A DNA stretch of 64,000 nt from Albidovulum marisflavi (GTDB lineage Bacteria; Pseudomonadota; Alphaproteobacteria; Rhodobacterales; Rhodobacteraceae), in the NCBI RefSeq assembly GCF_025751435.1, contig NZ_JAOWKY010000002.1, positions 248,001-312,000 of the forward strand, given 5' to 3'. Made by a program: the position numbers and the translations under genes. Positions 8,107 to 36,445 of the stretch are shown piece after piece. The notes below the pieces were generated by a model. It did no database searches. It was not told where the DNA came from and saw only the letters and a list, made by a program, of their open reading frames with translations. How positions within the stretch are numbered: position 1 is the stretch's first letter; each line of letters begins with the position of its first letter.

Positions 8107-8613
8107 TCACGCCTTCTGCGGCAGGGGCGGGAGAAGACTTCTGGGGTCGAAGTCCTCGGGATACTGGTCGGAAAGCTGCTGGCTGCGGCGCGCGGCTTTT
8201 TCCTCGTAGGCGGCGGGGCTCCAGATGCGGAAATAGTCGCCCGCAGAGATGAAGAAGGCTTCCCCCTGCAGGCCCACCTTTTCGCGCAGCTTCTGCGGAA
8301 TTGTCAGGCGGCCATCGTCGTCGATCTGGGTTTCCAGCGACTGACCGTACATCCGCTCTTCGACCAACAGGCGTTCGGTTGATCCGCGCTGCATCAGCGC
8401 GATCTGTTCGTCCATCTCGTGCACGGCTTCCATGGAGAAGACTTCAAGCCAGTTCTGGCTGTCGGGGCCGTAGACGATGACGATGTTGGGGCGCAGGCCC
8501 TCTTTCCAATCGGGATCGGATGCCTCGATGACGCGGCGGAAGGGGGCGGGAATGGAAACGCGACCCTTCGCGTCCACCTTGAACGTATCCGACCCTCTGA
8601 ACCTGCGTGCCAC
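8107..8613 (-). CDS. mraZ: transcriptional regulator MraZ
   Basis: A 168-residue protein with two tandem SpoVT/AbrB-like MraZ modules, marked by DAKGRVSIPAPFR (about residues 15-27) and DDDGRLTIPQKLR (about 97-109). In other bacteria MraZ binds direct repeats upstream of its own gene and controls the dcw cluster. It is the first gene of the operon here and is preceded by a 640-base leader containing repeat groups that fit such boxes (see separate entries). Confidence 0.97.
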   Translation of the reverse strand: MARRFRGSDTFKVDAKGRVSIPAPFRRVIEASDPDWKEGLRPNIVIVYGPDSQNWLEVFSMEAVHEMDEQIALMQRGSTERLLVEERMYGQSLETQIDDDGRLTIPQKLREKVGLQGEAFFISAGDYFRIWSPAAYEEKAARRSQQLSDQYPEDFDPRSLLPPLPQKA

Positions 8614-8694
8614 CGGCCCGCGCTCCTGCTACTACCCCTCCCCCAGATATCGTCGCCAGCAAGCGGACCAGTTCCGGTCCCCTGGAACGACAAC

Positions 8695-8728
8695 GGCGGA
8701 TCGGGCTGCTGCCACTGCCCGATCCGCC
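8695..8728 (-). other. strong 12-bp hairpin in the mraZ leader
   Basis: Perfect inverted repeat GGCGGATCGGGC (8695-8706) and GCCCGATCCGCC (8717-8728) around a 10-base loop, about 80 bases upstream of the mraZ start. It has no T run on either side, so it is not a plain intrinsic terminator. It could be an attenuator, an RNase-processing stem or the 3' stem of a leader-derived sRNA. Confidence 0.65.
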
Positions 8729-8892
8729 GCCCTCGTTCCCACTACTGGGTTGTCCGACTGCCCTGCCACCTGGGGGATGTCTGCTCGCATGAGCGCCGGA
8801 TCTCGTCGTTCGATGAAGCGGGTGCCTGTATGAAACCTGACTTCTGCCGTTTGGGTCTTTTCGCCCTTAGAGCCCGTCTTCATCCGTAAACA

Positions 8893-8917
8893 AGGGATGC
8901 CATGGGAATTCATGGGA
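8893..8917 (+). promoter_or_regulatory. candidate MraZ box A (three repeats)
   Basis: Three GGGA-containing pentamers at exact 10-base spacing: AGGGA at 8893, TGGGA at 8903 and TGGGA at 8913. This is the TGGGN-N5 pattern known for MraZ operators. They read on the plus strand, opposite to mraZ. Confidence 0.6.
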
Positions 8918-9071
8918 AGCAAGAGAAATCTGGCCCTGAGAACCAAGGAAACACGCGTGGAAAGCGCGGATAAATAGCAGAGGCAGCCGCTTTGAACGCC
9001 ACCCTCTGGCATAAATTGGGGTAGGAACATTTCACAGCACAACATATGGAACAACGAGAGCATCAGATTAC

Positions 9072-9253: not shown

Positions 9254-10330
9254 TCAGGCCATTCCACCCGCGATCAAGCGGCGCGCAAGCTGGGCGTAGG
9301 CGTCGGCAACCGGCCCCTCACCCGCAGCGATGGGCGTGCCCGCGTCGCCCGCAAGGCGAATGTCGAGGTTCAACGGTATTTCTCCCAGGAACGGCACGCC
9401 CAGCTTGGCCGCCTCTGCCGCGACGCCGCCGTGACCGAACAGGTGCGCCTCGTGCCCACAGTTGGGGCAGACGTAGGTAGACATGTTCTCGACCAGCCCC
9501 AGGATCGGGGTCTTGAGCTTGCCGAACATGTCGATCGCGCGGCGCGCATCCAGAAGCGCCACGTCCTGCGGCGTGGACACGACGATGGCGCCGGTCAGGT
9601 GCGTGCGCTGGCACAGTGTAAGCTGCACATCCCCGGTTCCAGGCGGCAGATCGACGATCAGCACGTCAAGTTCGCCCCAGGCCACCTGCCCCAGCATCTG
9701 CTGCAGCGCCCCCATGAGCATCGGGCCGCGCCACACGACGGCCTCATCCTCTTTCAGCATCAGCCCGATCGACATCATCGTGACGCCATGCGCCGTCAGC
9801 GGGATGATCGTCTTCCCATCGGGCGAGGCGGGCCGCTTGGAAACGCCCATCATCCGAGGCTGCGACGGGCCGTAGATGTCGGCGTCCAGAAGCCCCACCT
9901 TGCGCCCCTGCCGCGCAAGCGCGACGGCCAGGTTAGACGAAAGCGTGGACTTGCCGACCCCACCCTTTCCCGAGGCGATCGCGATGATCCGGTTTATGCC
10001 CGCCACCGGCTGCGGACCGGCCTGCGGCGTGGGATGGCCGCCGATCTTGAGCGATGGCGCCGGCGCAGCAGCCTTCGGCGCGGGCCCGTGTGCGGTCAGG
10101 ACAACCGACACCGAGGCCACGCCGGGAAGCGCGCGAACGGCGGCCTCGGCGGCCTGGCGAACGGGCTCCATGCGACGGGCCGCTTCCGGATCGGGCGCCT
10201 CCAGCACGAAGCGCACCTTGTCGCCCTCAACCGCCAGCGCCCTGACCAGGTCACGGGTCACGACGTCGCCGCCTTCGGGCAGTGTCACGCGACCAAGGGC
10301 TTTGAGAACGGCGTCACGTGTCAGGCTCAT
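9254..10330 (-). CDS. apbC: Mrp/NBP35 family iron-sulfur carrier ATPase
   Basis: Cytoplasmic P-loop ATPase (358 residues from the chosen start) that is thought to carry or insert Fe-S clusters. An N-terminal MIP18/DUF59 domain (residues 1-75) precedes a deviant Walker [19 protein letters not shown], the motif [14 protein letters not shown], and a C-terminal CPNCG pair for cluster bridging. I start at ATG 10330 ([12 protein letters not shown]); the 32 upstream codons in frame look like non-coding leader. It is transcribed alone, upstream of the mraZ leader. Also called mrp. Confidence 0.93.
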
Positions 10331-10440
10331 CGCAGGCTCCTTCGCTTTCGCGACACAGTTGTGACGGATAATCGGCAAGGGCAAGGGGCGTCGTCCGCGG
10401 CATGCTGGAAAATCACTCAGAAACAAGGCAAACGCCCGAT

Positions 10441-10457
10441 AATACGTCAGAATACGT
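10441..10457 (+). promoter_or_regulatory. phased repeat upstream of the DUF1127 gene
   Basis: AATACGT occurs twice, at 10441 and 10451, with 10-base phase, in the intergenic region ahead of the DUF1127/CcsR transcription unit. It could be a binding site. In Rhodobacter this unit is driven by RpoHI/RpoHII; no clear promoter of that class could be fixed by eye. Confidence 0.3.
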
Positions 10458-10601
10458 TATGCAATTGCTGCATGGCGGCATTGATGCGAAGCGGTATTGT
10501 GCACCTGCAGCATTGAACGCATGTTAGCCCCAACAGCGCCAATGACGGCGCCAGACGACCGGCGCCCAGGACGGCGCCTAAGAAGACGAACAGGTGAACA
10601 A

Positions 10602-10817
10602 ATGGCAAATGTATCGGCGCTCAGCGGAATGGAGCTCGGCCTGACGGACCGGATCGGCGCGTTCCTTCGCAACCTGCAAGACGCCCGCGGCCGCCACAAG
10701 GTCTACCGCCAGACTGTCAAGGAACTGAGCGCACTGACCGAACGCGAACTTCTCGACCTGGGCATCAGCCCCTCGATGATCACATCGATCGCGATGGAGG
10801 CCGCTTACGGCAAGTAA
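10602..10817 (+). CDS. DUF1127 small protein (CcaF1-like)
   Basis: A 71-residue protein starting at ATG 10602 after AGGTG; the C-terminal half (YRQTVKELSALTERELLDLG, then ISPSMI) is the DUF1127 signature. In Rhodobacter sphaeroides the homologous gene ccaF1 (RSP_6037) encodes a small RNA-binding protein and is co-transcribed with the CcsR1-4 sRNAs, which are cut from its 3' UTR. The same arrangement is seen here: eight anti-Shine-Dalgarno hairpins begin nine bases after the stop. The protein probably has the same role in RNA processing under stress. The ortholog assignment rests on family plus synteny; the exact symbol would need alignment. Confidence 0.88.
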   Translation: MANVSALSGMELGLTDRIGAFLRNLQDARGRHKVYRQTVKELSALTERELLDLGISPSMITSIAMEAAYGK

Positions 10818-10825
10818 GGAACTCT

Positions 10826-10891
10826 CCGGACCAATCCTCCTCCCTGGTCCGGGAACAGCGGCGGCATCAACCTCCTCCCTGATGCTGCCGC
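10826..10891 (+). ncRNA. ccsR1: CcsR/cuckoo-type sRNA 1 (two hairpins)
   Basis: Hairpin 1 (10826-10852) has the 8-bp stem CCGGACCA/TGGTCCGG; hairpin 2 (10858-10891) has a 12-bp stem GCGGCGGCATCA/TGATGCTGCCGC with one G-U pair. Each loop holds CCTCCTCCC (10836-10844 and 10871-10879), an anti-Shine-Dalgarno sequence. Two such hairpins make one CcsR unit in Rhodobacter; stress-induced CcsRs act on C1 metabolism and glutathione-related functions there. Confidence 0.85.
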
Positions 10892-10901
10892 AAGATACGC
10901 G

Positions 10902-10974
10902 GACCCCCTTCCTCCTCCCTGGGGGTTTCGCGACGAAGCGCGGCGGTGGCAACCTCCTCCCTGCCACCGCCGCG
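10902..10974 (+). ncRNA. ccsR2: CcsR/cuckoo-type sRNA 2 (two hairpins)
   Basis: Hairpin 3 (10902-10927) has the short stem ACCCCC/GGGGGT; hairpin 4 (10939-10974) has a perfect 13-bp stem beginning CGCGGCGGTGGCA. Loops again carry CCTCCTCCC (10911-10919 and 10953-10961). It is followed by a 58-base spacer, the longest in the array, which contains small GC hairpins (CCGG/CCGG and GGGCC/GGCCC) of unknown meaning. Confidence 0.85.
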
Positions 10975-11032
10975 ACTTCCACCCGGCACATGGCCGGACA
11001 AATTCAGGGCCGATGGGCCCGAAAGAATGCGA

Positions 11033-11104
11033 TCGCTCCCTCCTCCTCCCTGGAGCGACGCTGTGAAGACGGTGGCAGCCCTACCTCCTCCCAGGGTTGC
11101 CACC
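11033..11104 (+). ncRNA. ccsR3: CcsR/cuckoo-type sRNA 3 (two hairpins)
   Basis: Hairpin 5 (11033-11058) has the stem TCGCTCC/GGAGCGA; hairpin 6 (11071-11104) has a 12-bp stem GGTGGCAGCCCT/AGGGTTGCCACC with one G-U pair. Loop motifs CCTCCTCCC lie at 11042-11050 and 11084-11092. Confidence 0.85.
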
Positions 11105-11124
11105 GGACCTTCACCCGATAACGA

Positions 11125-11198
11125 GGGCCCCCTCCTCCTCCCTGGGGCTCGCGTCATGACGGCGGCCCCTCCTCCTCCCTGGGGCCGCCGTTTTTTTT
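11125..11198 (+). ncRNA. ccsR4: CcsR/cuckoo-type sRNA 4 with terminal terminator
   Basis: Hairpin 7 (11125-11150, stem GGGCCCC/GGGGCTC) and hairpin 8 (11160-11190, perfect 10-bp stem CGGCGGCCCC/GGGGCCGCCG), loops with CCTCCTCCC at 11134-11142 and 11171-11179. Hairpin 8 is followed by eight T (11191-11198), so it also serves as the Rho-independent terminator of the whole DUF1127-CcsR transcript. Confidence 0.85.
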
Positions 11199-11322
11199 CG
11201 TCCAGATCTTTCAGGCTGCGCCCGGATACCGGCGGCAAGCCGTCATCCGCGGGGCGCTTCGCGCGCGCCGTTCACCGGGGCGTGGCGCCAGGCGTTCCTG
11301 CGTGGCGCAACAACTGGCGGGA

Positions 11323-13683
11323 TCAGAAGGGAACGTCGTCAGCAGTTTCGGCGGCGACGACGAAGCTGGACACCACGTGCTTCACGCCCGCCTTGTCGAA
11401 GGCGATTTCCAGCTTGTCGCCCTCGGTCGCCTCGACCGTGCCGTAGCCGAACTTCTTGTGAAATACGCGGTCACCCTCGGTGAAGGCGGACACGGCTTCA
11501 AGGTCGATGATCTGGTTTCGGGAGTCGCGCGGCTGCGAGATGCTGCGATGCCCGGCGCGATCCTGCATCCGCTTCCAGCCGGGGGAGTTGTAGACATCGG
11601 CGCGCGTCGCCCGGTCTTCCATGGCGCTTTCCCCCGCGCGCGGCGCCGCCGCCCCGAATCCGCCTCCGTATAGGCCCGGCGGGGTCAGCACCTCGACGTG
11701 ACTGGCGGGAAGTTCGTCGATGAAGCGCGAAGGAAGCTGGCTTTGCCATTGACCGTAGACGCGGCGATTGCCCGCGAAGGAAATAGTGCAAAGTTCCTCG
11801 GCCCGCGTGATGCCGACGTAGGCCAGGCGGCGTTCTTCCTCCAGCCCCCTCAGGCCGCTTTCGTCCATGCTGCGCTGGCTGGGGAAAAGCCCGTCTTCCC
11901 ACCCCGGCAGGAAGACGACCGGGAACTCCAGCCCCTTGGCGGCGTGAAGCGTCATGATGGTGATCTTGTCCTCGGCATCCTCGCTGTCATTGTCCATGAT
12001 CAGCGAGACATGTTCGAGGAAACCTTGCAGGTTCTCGAAACTCTCCAGAGCCTTGACGAGTTCCTTGAGGTTTTCCAGCCGGCCGGGCGCCTCGGGCGTC
12101 TTGTCGTTCTGCCACATCTCGGTGTAGCCGGATTCGTCCAGGATCGTTTCGGCCAGCCGAATGTGATCATAGCCCGGCGCCGCCGTCTCCTTGTGCCAGC
12201 GGTCGATCTGCTCAACCAGCAGCCGCAGCTGCGCGCCGCCCTTGCCGCCGATCTGGCCCGAGGCCACGACGTAGCGCGCGCCTTCCAGAAGGCTCACGCC
12301 GTCTTCACGCGCCTGCCGCTGGATCACCTGCTGGGCCTTGTCGCCCAGGCCGCGTTTGGGGGTGTTCACGATCCGCTCGAACGCAAGATCGTCGGCAGGC
12401 GACACGGCAAGCCGGAAATAGGCCATTGCGTCGCGAATCTCGAGCCGTTCATAGAACCGCGGGCCGCCCACGACACGGTAGGGAAGGCCGATGGTCAGGA
12501 AGCGGTCCTCGAACGCGCGCATCTGGTGGGAGGCACGCACGAGGATCGCTTGCTGCGTCAGGCGGAACGGGCCCAGCCCGCGGGTGCCGCGCTGCAGCGC
12601 CTCGGCCTCTTCGCCGATCCAGCGCGCTTCTTCGTCGCCGTCCCAGTGACCGATCAACCGGACCTTTTCACCGCCCTCTGCCTCGGTCCAAAGCGTCTTG
12701 CCAAGCCGTCCGGCGTTGGCTGCGATCAGACCCGAGGCAGCGGCAAGGATGTGTTCGCCCGAGCGGTAGTTCTGTTCCAGCCGAATGACCTTGGCGCCGG
12801 GAAAGTCCTTTTCGAACCGCAGGATGTTGCCGACCTCGGCGCCGCGCCAGCCGTAGATCGACTGGTCGTCATCGCCGACGCAGCAGATGTTTTTGTGCTT
12901 CGCGGCCAAAAGGCGCAGCCAAAGATACTGGGCGACGTTGGTGTCCTGGTATTCGTCCACCAGGATGTAGCGGAACCAGCGCTGGTATTGTTCCAGCACA
13001 TCCGGGTGCTTCTGGAAGATCGTCACGACGTGAAGAAGCAGGTCGCCGAAGTCGCAGGCGTTCAGCGTCAGCAGACGCGCCTGGTAGGCTGCATAAAGTT
13101 CGGTCCCCATGTGGTTGAAGGCCGAGGCTTCCGCGGACGGCACCTGTTCGGGGCCCCACGCTCGGTTCTTCCAGTGATCGATCAGCCCCGCCAACTGCCG
13201 GGCGGGCCAACGTTTTTCGTCGATGTTCGCCGCCGCGATCACCTGCTTGAGCAGACGGATCTGGTCGTCGGTGTCGAGGATGGTGAAGTTCGACTTGAGG
13301 CCCACCAGTTCGGCATGGCGGCGCAGGATCTTGACGCTGATCGAATGGAAGGTGCCCATCCAGGGCATCCCCTCGACCGTTCCGCCAGTCAGTCTGCCCA
13401 CGCGTTCCTTCATTTCCCGCGCGGCCTTGTTGGTGAAGGTGACCGCCAGGATCTCGTTCGGGCGGGCCAGCCCGCGGGCCAAAAGGTGCGCGATCCGCGC
13501 CGTCAGCGCCCGCGTCTTTCCCGTCCCTGCCCCCGCCAGCATCAGGACAGGACCGTCCAGCGCCTCGACCGCCTCGCGTTGCGCGGGGTTAAGCCCTTCC
13601 AGATAAGGCGCGGGCCGCGCGGCCATGGCGCGTGCGGACAGGGATAGGCCTTCGAAGGCGTCGAATTCGTCGGAACTGCTCAT
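11323..13683 (-). CDS. uvrD: ATP-dependent DNA helicase UvrD/PcrA
   Basis: Superfamily 1A 3'-5' helicase (786 residues) for nucleotide excision and mismatch repair. All helicase motifs are present: I GAGTGKTR (residues 51-58), II VDEYQDTN, III GDDDQSIYGWRGA, IV LEQNYRS, V TLHAAKGLEFP, VI VGITRAEE. A C-terminal Tudor-like tail (FGYGTVEATEGDKLEIAF) is typical of PcrA/UvrD. A GTTC-N7-GTTC SOS box lies 41 bases upstream, so LexA control is likely. It is divergent from the hydroxy-acid dehydrogenase gene. Confidence 0.96.
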   Translation of the reverse strand: MSSSDEFDAFEGLSLSARAMAARPAPYLEGLNPAQREAVEALDGPVLMLAGAGTGKTRALTARIAHLLARGLARPNEILAVTFTNKAAREMKERVGRLTGGTVEGMPWMGTFHSISVKILRRHAELVGLKSNFTILDTDDQIRLLKQVIAAANIDEKRWPARQLAGLIDHWKNRAWGPEQVPSAEASAFNHMGTELYAAYQARLLTLNACDFGDLLLHVVTIFQKHPDVLEQYQRWFRYILVDEYQDTNVAQYLWLRLLAAKHKNICCVGDDDQSIYGWRGAEVGNILRFEKDFPGAKVIRLEQNYRSGEHILAAASGLIAANAGRLGKTLWTEAEGGEKVRLIGHWDGDEEARWIGEEAEALQRGTRGLGPFRLTQQAILVRASHQMRAFEDRFLTIGLPYRVVGGPRFYERLEIRDAMAYFRLAVSPADDLAFERIVNTPKRGLGDKAQQVIQRQAREDGVSLLEGARYVVASGQIGGKGGAQLRLLVEQIDRWHKETAAPGYDHIRLAETILDESGYTEMWQNDKTPEAPGRLENLKELVKALESFENLQGFLEHVSLIMDNDSEDAEDKITIMTLHAAKGLEFPVVFLPGWEDGLFPSQRSMDESGLRGLEEERRLAYVGITRAEELCTISFAGNRRVYGQWQSQLPSRFIDELPASHVEVLTPPGLYGGGFGAAAPRAGESAMEDRATRADVYNSPGWKRMQDRAGHRSISQPRDSRNQIIDLEAVSAFTEGDRVFHKKFGYGTVEATEGDKLEIAFDKAGVKHVVSSFVVAAETADDVPF

Positions 13684-18706: not shown

Positions 18707-18781
18707 GCGGGCGTAGCTCAGGGGTAGAGCATAACCTTGCCAAGGTTAGGGTCGTGAGTTCGAATCTCATCGCCCGCTCCA
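18707..18781 (+). tRNA. tRNA-Gly (GCC), copy 1
   Basis: Cloverleaf with acceptor GCGGGCG/CGCCCGC, anticodon loop TTGCCAA (GCC at 18739-18741), T loop TTCGAAT and an encoded CCA end (18779-18781). Identical to the copy 188 bases downstream. Followed by its own terminator. Confidence 0.97.
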
Positions 18782-18894: not shown

Positions 18895-18969
18895 GCGGGC
18901 GTAGCTCAGGGGTAGAGCATAACCTTGCCAAGGTTAGGGTCGTGAGTTCGAATCTCATCGCCCGCTCCA
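18895..18969 (+). tRNA. tRNA-Gly (GCC), copy 2
   Basis: Same 75 bases as copy 1, CCA included; both copies are preceded by CACGGAG, so the duplicated unit extends at least seven bases upstream. A weak ATCTTC/GAAGAT hairpin follows. Confidence 0.97.
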
Positions 18970-34753: not shown

Positions 34754-34783
34754 CGGGCGGCCACTGGCCGCCCGCTTCATTTT
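34754..34783 (+). terminator. terminator after the Gly/Asn-rich protein gene
   Basis: Perfect 9-bp stem CGGGCGGCC/GGCCGCCCG with a 3-base loop followed by CTTCATTTT. It overlaps the end of the convergent methyltransferase gene. Confidence 0.7.
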
Positions 34784-36366
34784 GCGATGGGCCGCATCCG
34801 TTCGGCGGGCAGGCGGATCGGAAACCGGTCACGAATGCGCGCATCCAGTTCTGGTCCGATCGCGTCTGGAAAGTGATCCGACAGCAGCGAAGCCGCTGCG
34901 GCCCTTGCACGTTCCTCCATCGTCGCGGCGCCTTCGCCGGCCCATACCTGGGCCGGCGCGCGGTCCGCCATCTGCGGATAGACAAACTCTGTCTCCATGC
35001 TTTTCAGCGTGTCCGCAGCACCAAGGAAGTGCCCCTCCCCCAGCACCGCCGCCCGGATTGTCTCGACCGAAAGCGTCTCTTCATTGACTTCGATCCCGCG
35101 TATGACCCGCTGCGCCATGCCCAGCATGTCATTGTCGATGACAAGGGATTCATAGGACACGCCCATCAGGCTTGCCATCATGCCCGCCGACTCCAGCACG
35201 CGGTTGGCGCCTGCAAGGCCGGCGACAACGGCAGTGATGCCCTTTTCGTAGCCCATTTGCGCATCGGGCATCTTGGCGTCCGTCATCGACGCGGCAACCG
35301 TGGTCGGCAGATCATAGAAGCGTCCGATCTGGGCGATGGCCGCCATCGAAACGGCCACTTCGGCAGCGCCACCGGAAAAGGCGCCGCTGCGCAGGTCAAC
35401 CGCGAAAGGCCAAGCTGCGAAGGACATGGGACAACCGGGATTGACCATGTTGACGACCGAAAGGCAGGCAAGCGTTTCCGCCACAACCTGCGCCAGCGTA
35501 CCCGCCAGATAGGCCGGCGCAGTCGCCCCGGCCTGCGGCGCCACGGCGATGTCGTTGACAAGCCCCAGCCGACTGGTCGCCACCAGCACATCCAGATTTT
35601 CCGGCGCGAACCTGAGGGGCGAAACGATCGGACAGCCTCCGAAGGACACAAAAGGCCGATCGCGGAACCTCTTCTCTGATCCGGCGACCATCGCATAAAG
35701 TTCCATCGCGGCGGGCAAAGACGCGACGGTGTTGAACGTATGCTCAACCGGCTTCGTCGTTCCGGACAGGACGGCATAGACGACGTTGATGTCGTGCTCA
35801 AACAGGTCTTCGATCTCGGTCGGCACGACCATCTGACCGTACTGGTGAATGTTGGGCAGGGCGTCGGTCACGCGGGCGGTGTCGTAAACGTCCTGAAGGG
35901 TCGAGGGACGATATCGCCGCGCCCCGAAATCCAGGACCGAAACCGCCTCGCCCGAAGTTGCGTAGTGTACGCGACCACCGCCGACATTCAGATCGGCGTG
36001 GGCAGGATCGCGACTGTAGATCATGTACTCTCTGGCAGCCTTCGTCAGAAGATCCTCGACCAGCGCGGACGGGAAGACGAGCCGTCCGTGAGCGTTCAGG
36101 TGGCAACCCTTCGCTGTCGCGATCTCGATCACCTCGGGTGTTGCCTGCCCGATGCCGACGCTGCCCAGAAGCTCAAGCGCGGCTCGGTGGATCGAAAGCA
36201 GGTCCGATGGGGACAGCGGATTGTATTGCCCGCCCTCGATCCCGGCCCAGACGGGCTTGCGATCCGGCTCGGGGGCAGCCGCCCGAAGGGCAAGCCTCGC
36301 CGCCCGCCCGCCTGCGCGTGTGCGTGCCCCTCGTCTTTCCCTCTCGCCAGTCGGATTCTCGAACAT
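34777..36366 (-). CDS. MttB-family trimethylamine/quaternary-amine methyltransferase
   Basis: A 529-residue TIM-barrel protein of the trimethylamine:corrinoid methyltransferase (MttB) superfamily, non-pyrrolysine branch (the frame has no internal amber codon). Segments such as YNPLSPSDLLSIHRAALELL, TSGEAVSVLDFGARRYRPST and SFGGCPIVSPLRFAPENLDV are characteristic. Known relatives demethylate glycine betaine, proline betaine, carnitine or similar quaternary amines. No cognate corrinoid protein gene is in the window. I start at ATG 36366, seven bases after GGAG; ATG 36372 is the alternative. Divergent from a TetR gene with an operator-like palindrome between. Confidence 0.85.
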   Translation of the reverse strand: MFENPTGERERRGARTRAGGRAARLALRAAAPEPDRKPVWAGIEGGQYNPLSPSDLLSIHRAALELLGSVGIGQATPEVIEIATAKGCHLNAHGRLVFPSALVEDLLTKAAREYMIYSRDPAHADLNVGGGRVHYATSGEAVSVLDFGARRYRPSTLQDVYDTARVTDALPNIHQYGQMVVPTEIEDLFEHDINVVYAVLSGTTKPVEHTFNTVASLPAAMELYAMVAGSEKRFRDRPFVSFGGCPIVSPLRFAPENLDVLVATSRLGLVNDIAVAPQAGATAPAYLAGTLAQVVAETLACLSVVNMVNPGCPMSFAAWPFAVDLRSGAFSGGAAEVAVSMAAIAQIGRFYDLPTTVAASMTDAKMPDAQMGYEKGITAVVAGLAGANRVLESAGMMASLMGVSYESLVIDNDMLGMAQRVIRGIEVNEETLSVETIRAAVLGEGHFLGAADTLKSMETEFVYPQMADRAPAQVWAGEGAATMEERARAAAASLLSDHFPDAIGPELDARIRDRFPIRLPAERMRPIAK

Positions 36367-36429
36367 CGGCATTCTCCGGTCCGCAGATCCGGCAAGGCTA
36401 GAAATAACTGAGCGCTGAGTCAATTTTTT

Positions 36430-36445
36430 TTGAGCATACACTCAA
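36430..36445. promoter_or_regulatory. palindromic operator candidate
   Basis: TTGAG-CATACA-CTCAA, a perfect inverted repeat in the 118-base divergent region between mttB-like and tetR genes; TGAG-CGC-TGAGTCAA just to the left (36410-36423) carries further half-sites. It fits a binding site for the adjacent TetR regulator. Confidence 0.55.

Follow-up and report, generated by a model that had tools for sequence, protein, structure and literature searches.

A single loop is presented eight times by a row of hairpins that lies behind a small DUF1127 gene of Albidovulum marisflavi, within a 64,000-nucleotide stretch of DNA that was analysed as a whole and is called the window here. The locus raises two questions: do hairpins in its linkers set the sites at which RNase E and CcaF1 cut the transcript, and does a LysR-type regulator act on it besides RpoH? 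Taken as a whole, it is very probably an operon of the ccaF1-CcsR type (CIN1, cuckoo RNA) that makes processed anti-Shine-Dalgarno (anti-SD) small RNAs. Sequence, layout, covariation, conservation, linker hairpins and promoter boxes were observed directly; transcription, processing and pairing with Shine-Dalgarno (SD) sequences are carried over from the literature on R. sphaeroides and S. meliloti.

Structure of the Hairpin Array

The exact motif CCTCCTCCC begins at positions 10836, 10871, 10911, 10953, 11042, 11084, 11134 and 11171 of the forward strand. These eight are part of 27 copies found on both strands of the 3.8-Mb genome, in which the reversed-pattern control yields 30 copies, and the other 19 are scattered. 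The hairpins span 10823-11192 (+), directly 3' of the 71-aa DUF1127 gene, and are designated here as A-hairpins and B-hairpins of four units, all on the forward strand: H1 (10823..10854) and H2 (10858..10891) in unit 1, H3 (10898..10932) and H4 (10935..10979, with outer GAAG/CTTC pairs) in unit 2, H5 (11029..11061) and H6 (11063..11114) in unit 3, H7 (11121..11154) and H8 (11158..11198, including a terminal T8 tract) in unit 4. H1 to H5 were assigned by fold, covariation and shuffles and H8 by sequence, fold and shuffles. In H6 an outer GTGAAG/CTTCAC helix is invariant in 6/6 sequences of alignment A4 (the window and five arrays of the same genus), and in H7 three of ten pairs show double changes among relatives.

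When the array was folded with the motif held unpaired, all eight copies fell into the apical loop of a stem, inside loops of 10-12 nt, and the unconstrained fold returned the identical eight hairpins, so the preliminary description of eight hairpins sharing one loop is borne out. The fold of the 381-nt array has an energy of -207.7 kcal/mol, whereas 100 shuffles average -143.5 +/- 6.0 (z -10.7). Folded singly, the hairpins other than H7 reach z values of -3.2 to -7.2, each beating at least 199 of 200 shuffles, while H7 alone is no better than its shuffles (z -1.04; 26/200 fold as well). The T8 tract (11191-11198) follows the last hairpin, and H8 with T8 probably doubles as an intrinsic terminator; an automatic terminator scan, limited to loops of 3-8, gave no match at the locus.

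Two-Hairpin Units and Their Linkers

Arrays from other genomes were used to examine how the hairpins are grouped. From 105 arrays, 63 entered the unit analysis and 42 were skipped because they had fewer than four loops, contained or directly followed variant loops, or had a first gap above 55. Five of the arrays hold a single exact loop, the larger cluster was taken at loci with two (L100, L104, L107, L116), loci L049-L058, L060 and L061 duplicate other arrays in the set, L012 and L013 alone among L001-L030 were used as such, and one of two G381 copies was included. Because the sequences are related, none of the alignments or array counts given here consists of independent observations. Within units the spacing has a median of 39, with 4/256 values above 55, and between units a median of 60.5, with 108/210 above 55, the mean being larger between units than within them in 54 of the 63 arrays. 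The motif CGGYR occurs in the 5' arm of 200/256 even-numbered hairpins versus 50/273 odd-numbered ones in the same arrays. Both the spacing and this even/odd bias indicate that such arrays are strings of A-B pairs. The spacings in the window are, in order, 35, 40, 42, 89, 42, 50 and 37. To describe its stems as completely different, as was done at first, overstates the case, since the four even-numbered ones have CGGCGG or CGGTGG in common.

A pattern scan of named genomes gave six stretches, including loci of Cereibacter johrii (L150, with L152 as a second contig of this species) and Luteovulum azotoformans (L149), which we take to be Cereibacter azotoformans. Both Cereibacter loci consist of four pairs with spacings of 39, 66, 37-38, 76, 39-40, 73-74 and 39-40. 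Together with the spacing in 54/63 arrays and the CGGYR alternation, this layout supports the pairing H1+H2, H3+H4, H5+H6 and H7+H8 that was proposed at the outset.

The long spacer between H4 and H5 measures 49 nt by folded boundaries and contains two small hairpins. The first, C1 (10983..10997, +; CCGGC-ACATG-GCCGG), carries no anti-SD loop; its stem is invariant in 6/6 A4 sequences while its loop varies, and pairs that never vary give no covariation evidence. The second, C2 (11003..11023, +), has a GGGCC-GATG-GGCCC core, and 75.0% of its A4 cells are paired. The other two linkers of the window, between units 1 and 2 and units 3 and 4, are about 6 nt long, and the one between H2 and H3, AAGATA (10892-10897), is rich in A and unpaired in the fold.

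In C. johrii and C. azotoformans a hairpin free of the motif is predicted in all three inter-unit linkers. More widely, 112/146 long linkers can form a stem of 5 bp or longer, whereas 200 dinucleotide shuffles average 57.9 and never exceed 69; counting a single linker from each genome gives 58/72 against 24.6 (maximum 35). As a script picked the best stem per linker, the pair types are not independent evidence and the shuffle comparison alone counts. By an energy criterion the excess is smaller, with 111/121 linkers at or below -4 kcal/mol versus 87.0 expected. Alignment A1 covers the genus with 15 sequences out of 16 candidate references (L040 is omitted because of its longer linker), and from it RNAalifold recovered the A, B and C stems unaided, the C hairpin lying between units 1 and 2 with 97.3% of its cells paired. 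One of its five pairs is G-C in nine sequences, A-U in five and G-U in one; double changes occur in only one pair, and two pairs never vary. From the 51 family sequences of alignment A2 (59 candidate references), RNAalifold recovered only the B stem, and we think that A and C were lost there owing to variable loop and linker lengths. Judged by eye, a linker of this kind separates units 1 and 2 in 17/20 genus arrays. It is absent there from the window, G399 and G400, in which two small hairpins separate units 2 and 3, and in G010, G402 and G406 both linkers are structured.

The preliminary description had treated the long spacer as something that the CcsR1-4 model does not explain. This was not borne out, and the apparent anomaly disappears: because linker hairpins are common in Cereibacter and in other arrays, the spacer belongs to the usual kind and it is the collapsed linkers that deviate. 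The long spacer is probably an ordinary inter-unit linker whose motif-free hairpins serve as a cutting or end-protecting element. The repeat can be read as A and B, which carry the loop motif, followed by C, a small hairpin without it, and C is missing from two of the three linkers here. Given this loss, either four RNAs of about 80 nt, as usual, or two four-hairpin RNAs are predicted.

The collapsed linkers also bear on a different reading, in which one long multivalent RNA, or two four-hairpin RNAs, would soak up ribosome-binding sites or RNA-binding proteins, uncut into two-hairpin RNAs. Two linkers of about 6 nt suit it, as does the frequency of compact arrays, 102/210 between-unit gaps being 55 or less. 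Array size does so as well: the 105 arrays hold 1 to 26 exact loops, and one of them has 20. The 26-loop array (L137, genome G165) has near-identical three-hairpin repeats, 16/22 comparisons of segments three apart reaching at least 0.90, and its growth seems to reflect recent duplication of such blocks. Even so, the reference CcsR RNAs are reported to be cut into units (PMC8625941; PMC7866481), and the A-rich H2-H3 linker, single-stranded in the predicted fold, could be cut too. This reading as a whole is considered unlikely, and processing into two-hairpin RNAs is preferred. The range of 1 to 26 exact loops per array extends what has been read of this sparsely covered RNA family.

Relation to Rfam Families

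A covariance search with the Rfam CcsR model, which had been suggested as a check, fell short. No unit of the window reaches the gathering threshold of CcsR1 (RF02791; 65.3 bits), the scores being 46.8 bits for unit 1 (10818-10896), 33.3 for unit 3 (11025-11111) and 52.2, the best, for unit 4 (11117-11196), and unit 2 gave no CcsR1 match up to E 1. The first unit of both Cereibacter loci scores 106.2 bits with the same model. The supposed match to the CcsR1-4/CcaF1 layout of R. sphaeroides is supported by the two Cereibacter loci, which have the layout of the window. No Rfam threshold is reached by L012 and L037 of the same genus or by L139 of the family.

The Rfam model ar14 (RF02344; threshold 58.8 bits) does match at 10852-10978 with 64.2 bits, and again at 11064-11196 with 57.9 bits, just below threshold. 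These scores favour a reading of the array as two or more three-hairpin RNAs of the alpha-r14/NfeR1 kind in place of two-hairpin CcsR units. The first match, however, starts with H2 and thus runs across the boundary between units that the B-stem motif and the spacing mark in other arrays, and L012 and L037 do not share it. The alpha-r14/NfeR1 RNAs are described as having three hairpins and a sigma-70 promoter (PMC10746234); the eight hairpins of the window lie directly behind a DUF1127 gene and differ from this stand-alone layout. Such a composition is thus very unlikely. The array is filed here under neither CcsR1, whose threshold it misses, nor ar14. It is a locus of the CcsR/cuckoo (CIN1) type, in which, as in the Cereibacter loci, a ccaF1-like gene precedes four units of two hairpins.

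Other RNA matches were noted elsewhere in the window. Two tandem tRNA-Gly(GCC) genes (18707-18781 and 18895-18969) have the identical Rfam score of 68.7 bits. PYLIS_3, the pyrrolysine insertion sequence of mttB, is over threshold at 35194-35286 (-), inside a 554-aa MTTB-family reading frame (34777-36441; PF06253) without an internal stop; the match is no sign of pyrrolysine, as the frame has no stop in the matched stretch. No Rfam model exceeds its threshold in the stretch upstream of mraZ (mraZ, 8107-8613, -; upstream stretch, 8614-9040); the mraZ 5' UTR of R. sphaeroides is reported as the source of the sRNA UpsM (PMC7866481).

Gene Context, Covariation and Distribution

The gene ahead of the array (10602..10817, +) encodes a ccaF1-like DUF1127 protein of 71 aa (Pfam PF06568, E 1.3e-11), and its stop codon lies 21 nt ahead of the first loop motif. 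The start that gives 71 codons is the same in 19/20 genus loci, and none was found in L045. The upstream neighbour, divergently oriented, encodes an Mrp/NUBPL-type ATPase, and downstream of the array a UvrD-type helicase is encoded on the opposite strand. By a short sequence pattern, 98 of the 105 arrays have a DUF1127-like ORF in front of them. Most of these arrays were picked through a pattern at the DUF1127 stop codon (77/394 genomes by that pattern), and such an ORF is also present before 20/20 genus arrays and 8/9 other arrays picked without it; Pfam confirms DUF1127 at 5/5 named loci. The gene context recognised earlier is therefore well founded. Not all DUF1127 proteins are reported to bind RNA: for Salmonella YjiS no such binding was seen, and small Agrobacterium DUF1127 proteins are described as acting through PhoR (PMC12501420).

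A lack of stem covariation in relatives had been named beforehand as evidence against the reading, and the covariation was found. In A4, whose structure was taken from the window, 91.0% of cells hold standard pairs versus 86.9% in shuffles, 20 pairs, in 31 cells, show double changes versus 9.5, and the covariation score is 0.180 versus 0.109, none of 500 shuffles being as high in any of the three. Further pair types number 42 versus 36.8, a level reached by 6/500 shuffles. When one side was slid by 1-3 columns, paired cells fell to 36%-50%, a comparison in which the window-derived structure has an edge over the slid controls. The loop, which had been called invariant, is exact in 8/8 copies in the window but in 45/48 hairpins across the six A4 arrays.

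At least one loop pair at hairpin spacing is present in 296/394 genomes of the family, in a scan whose reversed-pattern control also matches some genomes, including one match in the window's own. Within the genus, 20/22 genomes have such a pair, and G408 and G410 gave no loop-pair match. Outside the family the count is 6/150 (8/152 with two family members) in a scan restricted to exact loop pairs at 20-50 nt, the six being pattern matches.

Since the hairpins form the 3' UTR of the DUF1127 gene and end in a terminator-like hairpin, they might be cis attenuators or stability elements of its mRNA, with no targets in trans. For stabilising an mRNA a 9-nt loop common to eight stems would be superfluous, the motif persists in those 45 of 48 hairpins while stem letters change, and the same loop is reported to work in trans in NfeR1 (PMC10746234), all of which makes a purely cis role highly improbable. 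A functionless chance repeat can be dismissed. Although the DNA here is rich in GC, with short inverted repeats frequent in such regions, and H7 alone stays within its shuffles, the z of -10.7 for the array and the covariation (0/500 shuffles) refute it, and loop pairs in 296 family genomes tell against it as well.

Promoter and Upstream Boxes

Upstream of the DUF1127 gene, a conserved block with twin boxes occupies 10457-10535 of the window and the same region in relatives. In the 19 genus upstream regions aligned, it ends in TTGTGC-N17-CATGTT (window 10497-10525), which constitutes a putative promoter with a -35-like TTGTGC (10497..10502, +) and, 17 nt after it, a -10-like CATGTT (10520..10525, +). 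The pattern TTGTGC-N3-5-GCAGCA was found in 20/20 genus and 68/78 other upstream regions, and in 0/98 control stretches behind the arrays. In the 88 promoters anchored by it, CATNTT follows TTGTGC at a spacing of 17 in 54 and of 18 in one, and was not found in 33; the anchor is absent from the remaining ten of 98 regions. The -10-like CATGTT resembles what we take to be the sigma-32 element CCCCATNT. A simple scan of 10300-11350 for sigma-70 promoters gave no match (0.1 expected by chance). The ccaF1 promoter is reported to depend on RpoHI/RpoHII (PMC10253847; PMC3320616), and the sigma-32-like -10 sequence predicted here fits such a promoter.

The twin boxes, both TGCA-N6-GCAT, are located at 10460..10473 (+) and at 10500..10513 (+), the second overlapping the -35-like element and the spacer. 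In the form TGCR-N6-GCAW, at least one box occurs in 94/98 promoter regions and at least two in 79/98; the total of 173 matches compares with 0.74 expected after shuffles that preserve single-base content only. The boxes sit at +3 from TTGTGC and, in 81/88 anchored promoters, at -37/-36, thus 39-40 bp apart; the +3 offset is partly forced by the anchor pattern, whereas the -37/-36 box is not. In the window and in 5/5 named loci they are exactly 40 bp apart.

In the NfeR1 promoter, TGCA-N6-GCAT (a T-N11-A site) is reported to be the site of LsrB, spanning -72 to -60 (PMC10746234), and with a transcription start guessed near 10532, box 1 of the window lies at about -72 to -59. LsrB itself was considered as the regulator and set aside: the box matches, but a passage of PMC11975290 states LsrB/VtlR to be unique to Rhizobiales. 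For this reason another regulator, perhaps a related LysR protein, is assumed here. Judged from their sequence, the twin boxes are a lead on regulation and no result. They might serve the divergent mrp gene as well. The mrp P-loop is present in 42/47 loci with enough upstream DNA, and two of the five loci without it have two boxes, two have one and one has none; with boxes at such loci, synteny does not separate mrp from ccaF1 as the box target.

PhaR was also tried as regulator of the TGC-rich block. At a phaC-phaP-phaR locus of the same genome (L160), where PhaC_N and PHB_acc_N are over cut-off and the phasin scores 23.2 bits against a cut-off of 24.9, a PhaR-like palindrome, TGCTGCGCCGCAGCA, lies between phaC and the phasin gene (1501-1515), with phaR downstream. 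The S. meliloti PhaR core is given as YGCRNYGCR (PMC12542648). Across the genome the general pattern shows no enrichment (13 and 8 matches versus 9 and 11 in the control), and the ccaF1 boxes do not, as we read them, agree with YGCRNYGCR and fit TGCA-N6-GCAT exactly, leaving PhaR a minor alternative.

Proposed Mechanism

In the mechanism proposed for this CcsR-type operon, a single stress-responsive promoter ahead of the DUF1127 gene would drive a transcript through four A-B units that ends at H8 and T8. By analogy with R. sphaeroides, RNase E, aided by the DUF1127 protein, would cut between the units to release small RNAs. There, the ccaF1 3' UTR is reported to give rise to CcsR1-4, and both RNase E and CcaF1 to play an important part in maturing them (PMC8625941; PMC10253847), and three differential 3' ends among CcsR1-4 are described as common to pnp and rne mutants (PMC7866481). 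By the same analogy, these three ends fit cutting in three linkers. With two linkers collapsed, cutting into four RNAs is not assured here, and the window may yield two four-hairpin RNAs instead.

The CCUCCUCCC loops would be the working part, pairing with ribosome-binding sites resembling GGGAGGAGG and thereby blocking translation, and the stems would be scaffolds free to drift as long as pairing holds. CCUCCUCCC has CCUCCU in common with the 16S anti-Shine-Dalgarno end. As a model for such action, NfeR1 is reported to silence ntrB through pairing of its anti-SD loops (PMC10746234). CcsR1-4 are called Hfq-dependent (PMC7866481) and NfeR1 Hfq-independent (PMC10746234), so the helper protein may differ from one such system to another.

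A joint reading of linkers and promoter can be offered tentatively, as a possibility that is somewhat doubtful: the array would be an A-B-C repeat in which C is a cutting or end-protecting signal, under a composite promoter with a sigma-32-like element and two LysR-type boxes 40 bp apart. If so, a missing C would fuse neighbours into four-hairpin multivalent RNAs, and the number of C hairpins would set how many loops each RNA carries. The spacing of the LysR-type box from the start would be about that of the NfeR1 LsrB site, and anti-SD RNAs of Rhizobiales and Rhodobacterales would have an ancestral LysR-type control in common, exerted in Rhodobacterales by a regulator different from LsrB but related to it. 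In the literature passages searched, with Billenkamp 2015, Grutzner 2021 and Reinkensmeier 2015 outside them, neither linker hairpins as part of the repeat nor the twin boxes are described, which is no proof of novelty.

Comparison With Known Systems

The closest counterpart is CcsR1-4/ccaF1 (RSP_6037) of Rhodobacter sphaeroides, for which the label CIN1 is quoted in PMC10253847; sequences were compared through the Cereibacter loci, R. sphaeroides itself not being among them. A 71-aa DUF1127 gene (PMC10253847), four units of two CCUCCUCCC hairpins and one or more hairpin-bearing linkers are common to both, and the upstream boxes of C. johrii and C. azotoformans are the same as those of the window, 40 bp apart. 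The window differs in that two of three linkers have collapsed while the third holds two small hairpins, and its stems have diverged until the Rfam CcsR1 scores fall under threshold.

With alpha-r14 (RF02344)/NfeR1 of Sinorhizobium meliloti the locus has in common CCUCCUCCC loops on changeable stems, one Rfam match over threshold and the TGCA-N6-GCAT promoter box (PMC10746234). NfeR1 is described with three hairpins and a sigma-70 promoter (PMC10746234), whereas here eight hairpins follow a DUF1127 gene under a putative sigma-32-like promoter. SmelA075 and SmelA099 of Rhizobiales, reported with three and four hairpins and similar CCUCCUCCC loops (PMC3927594, in which the term DUF1127 is absent), likewise have fewer hairpins than the eight of the present array.
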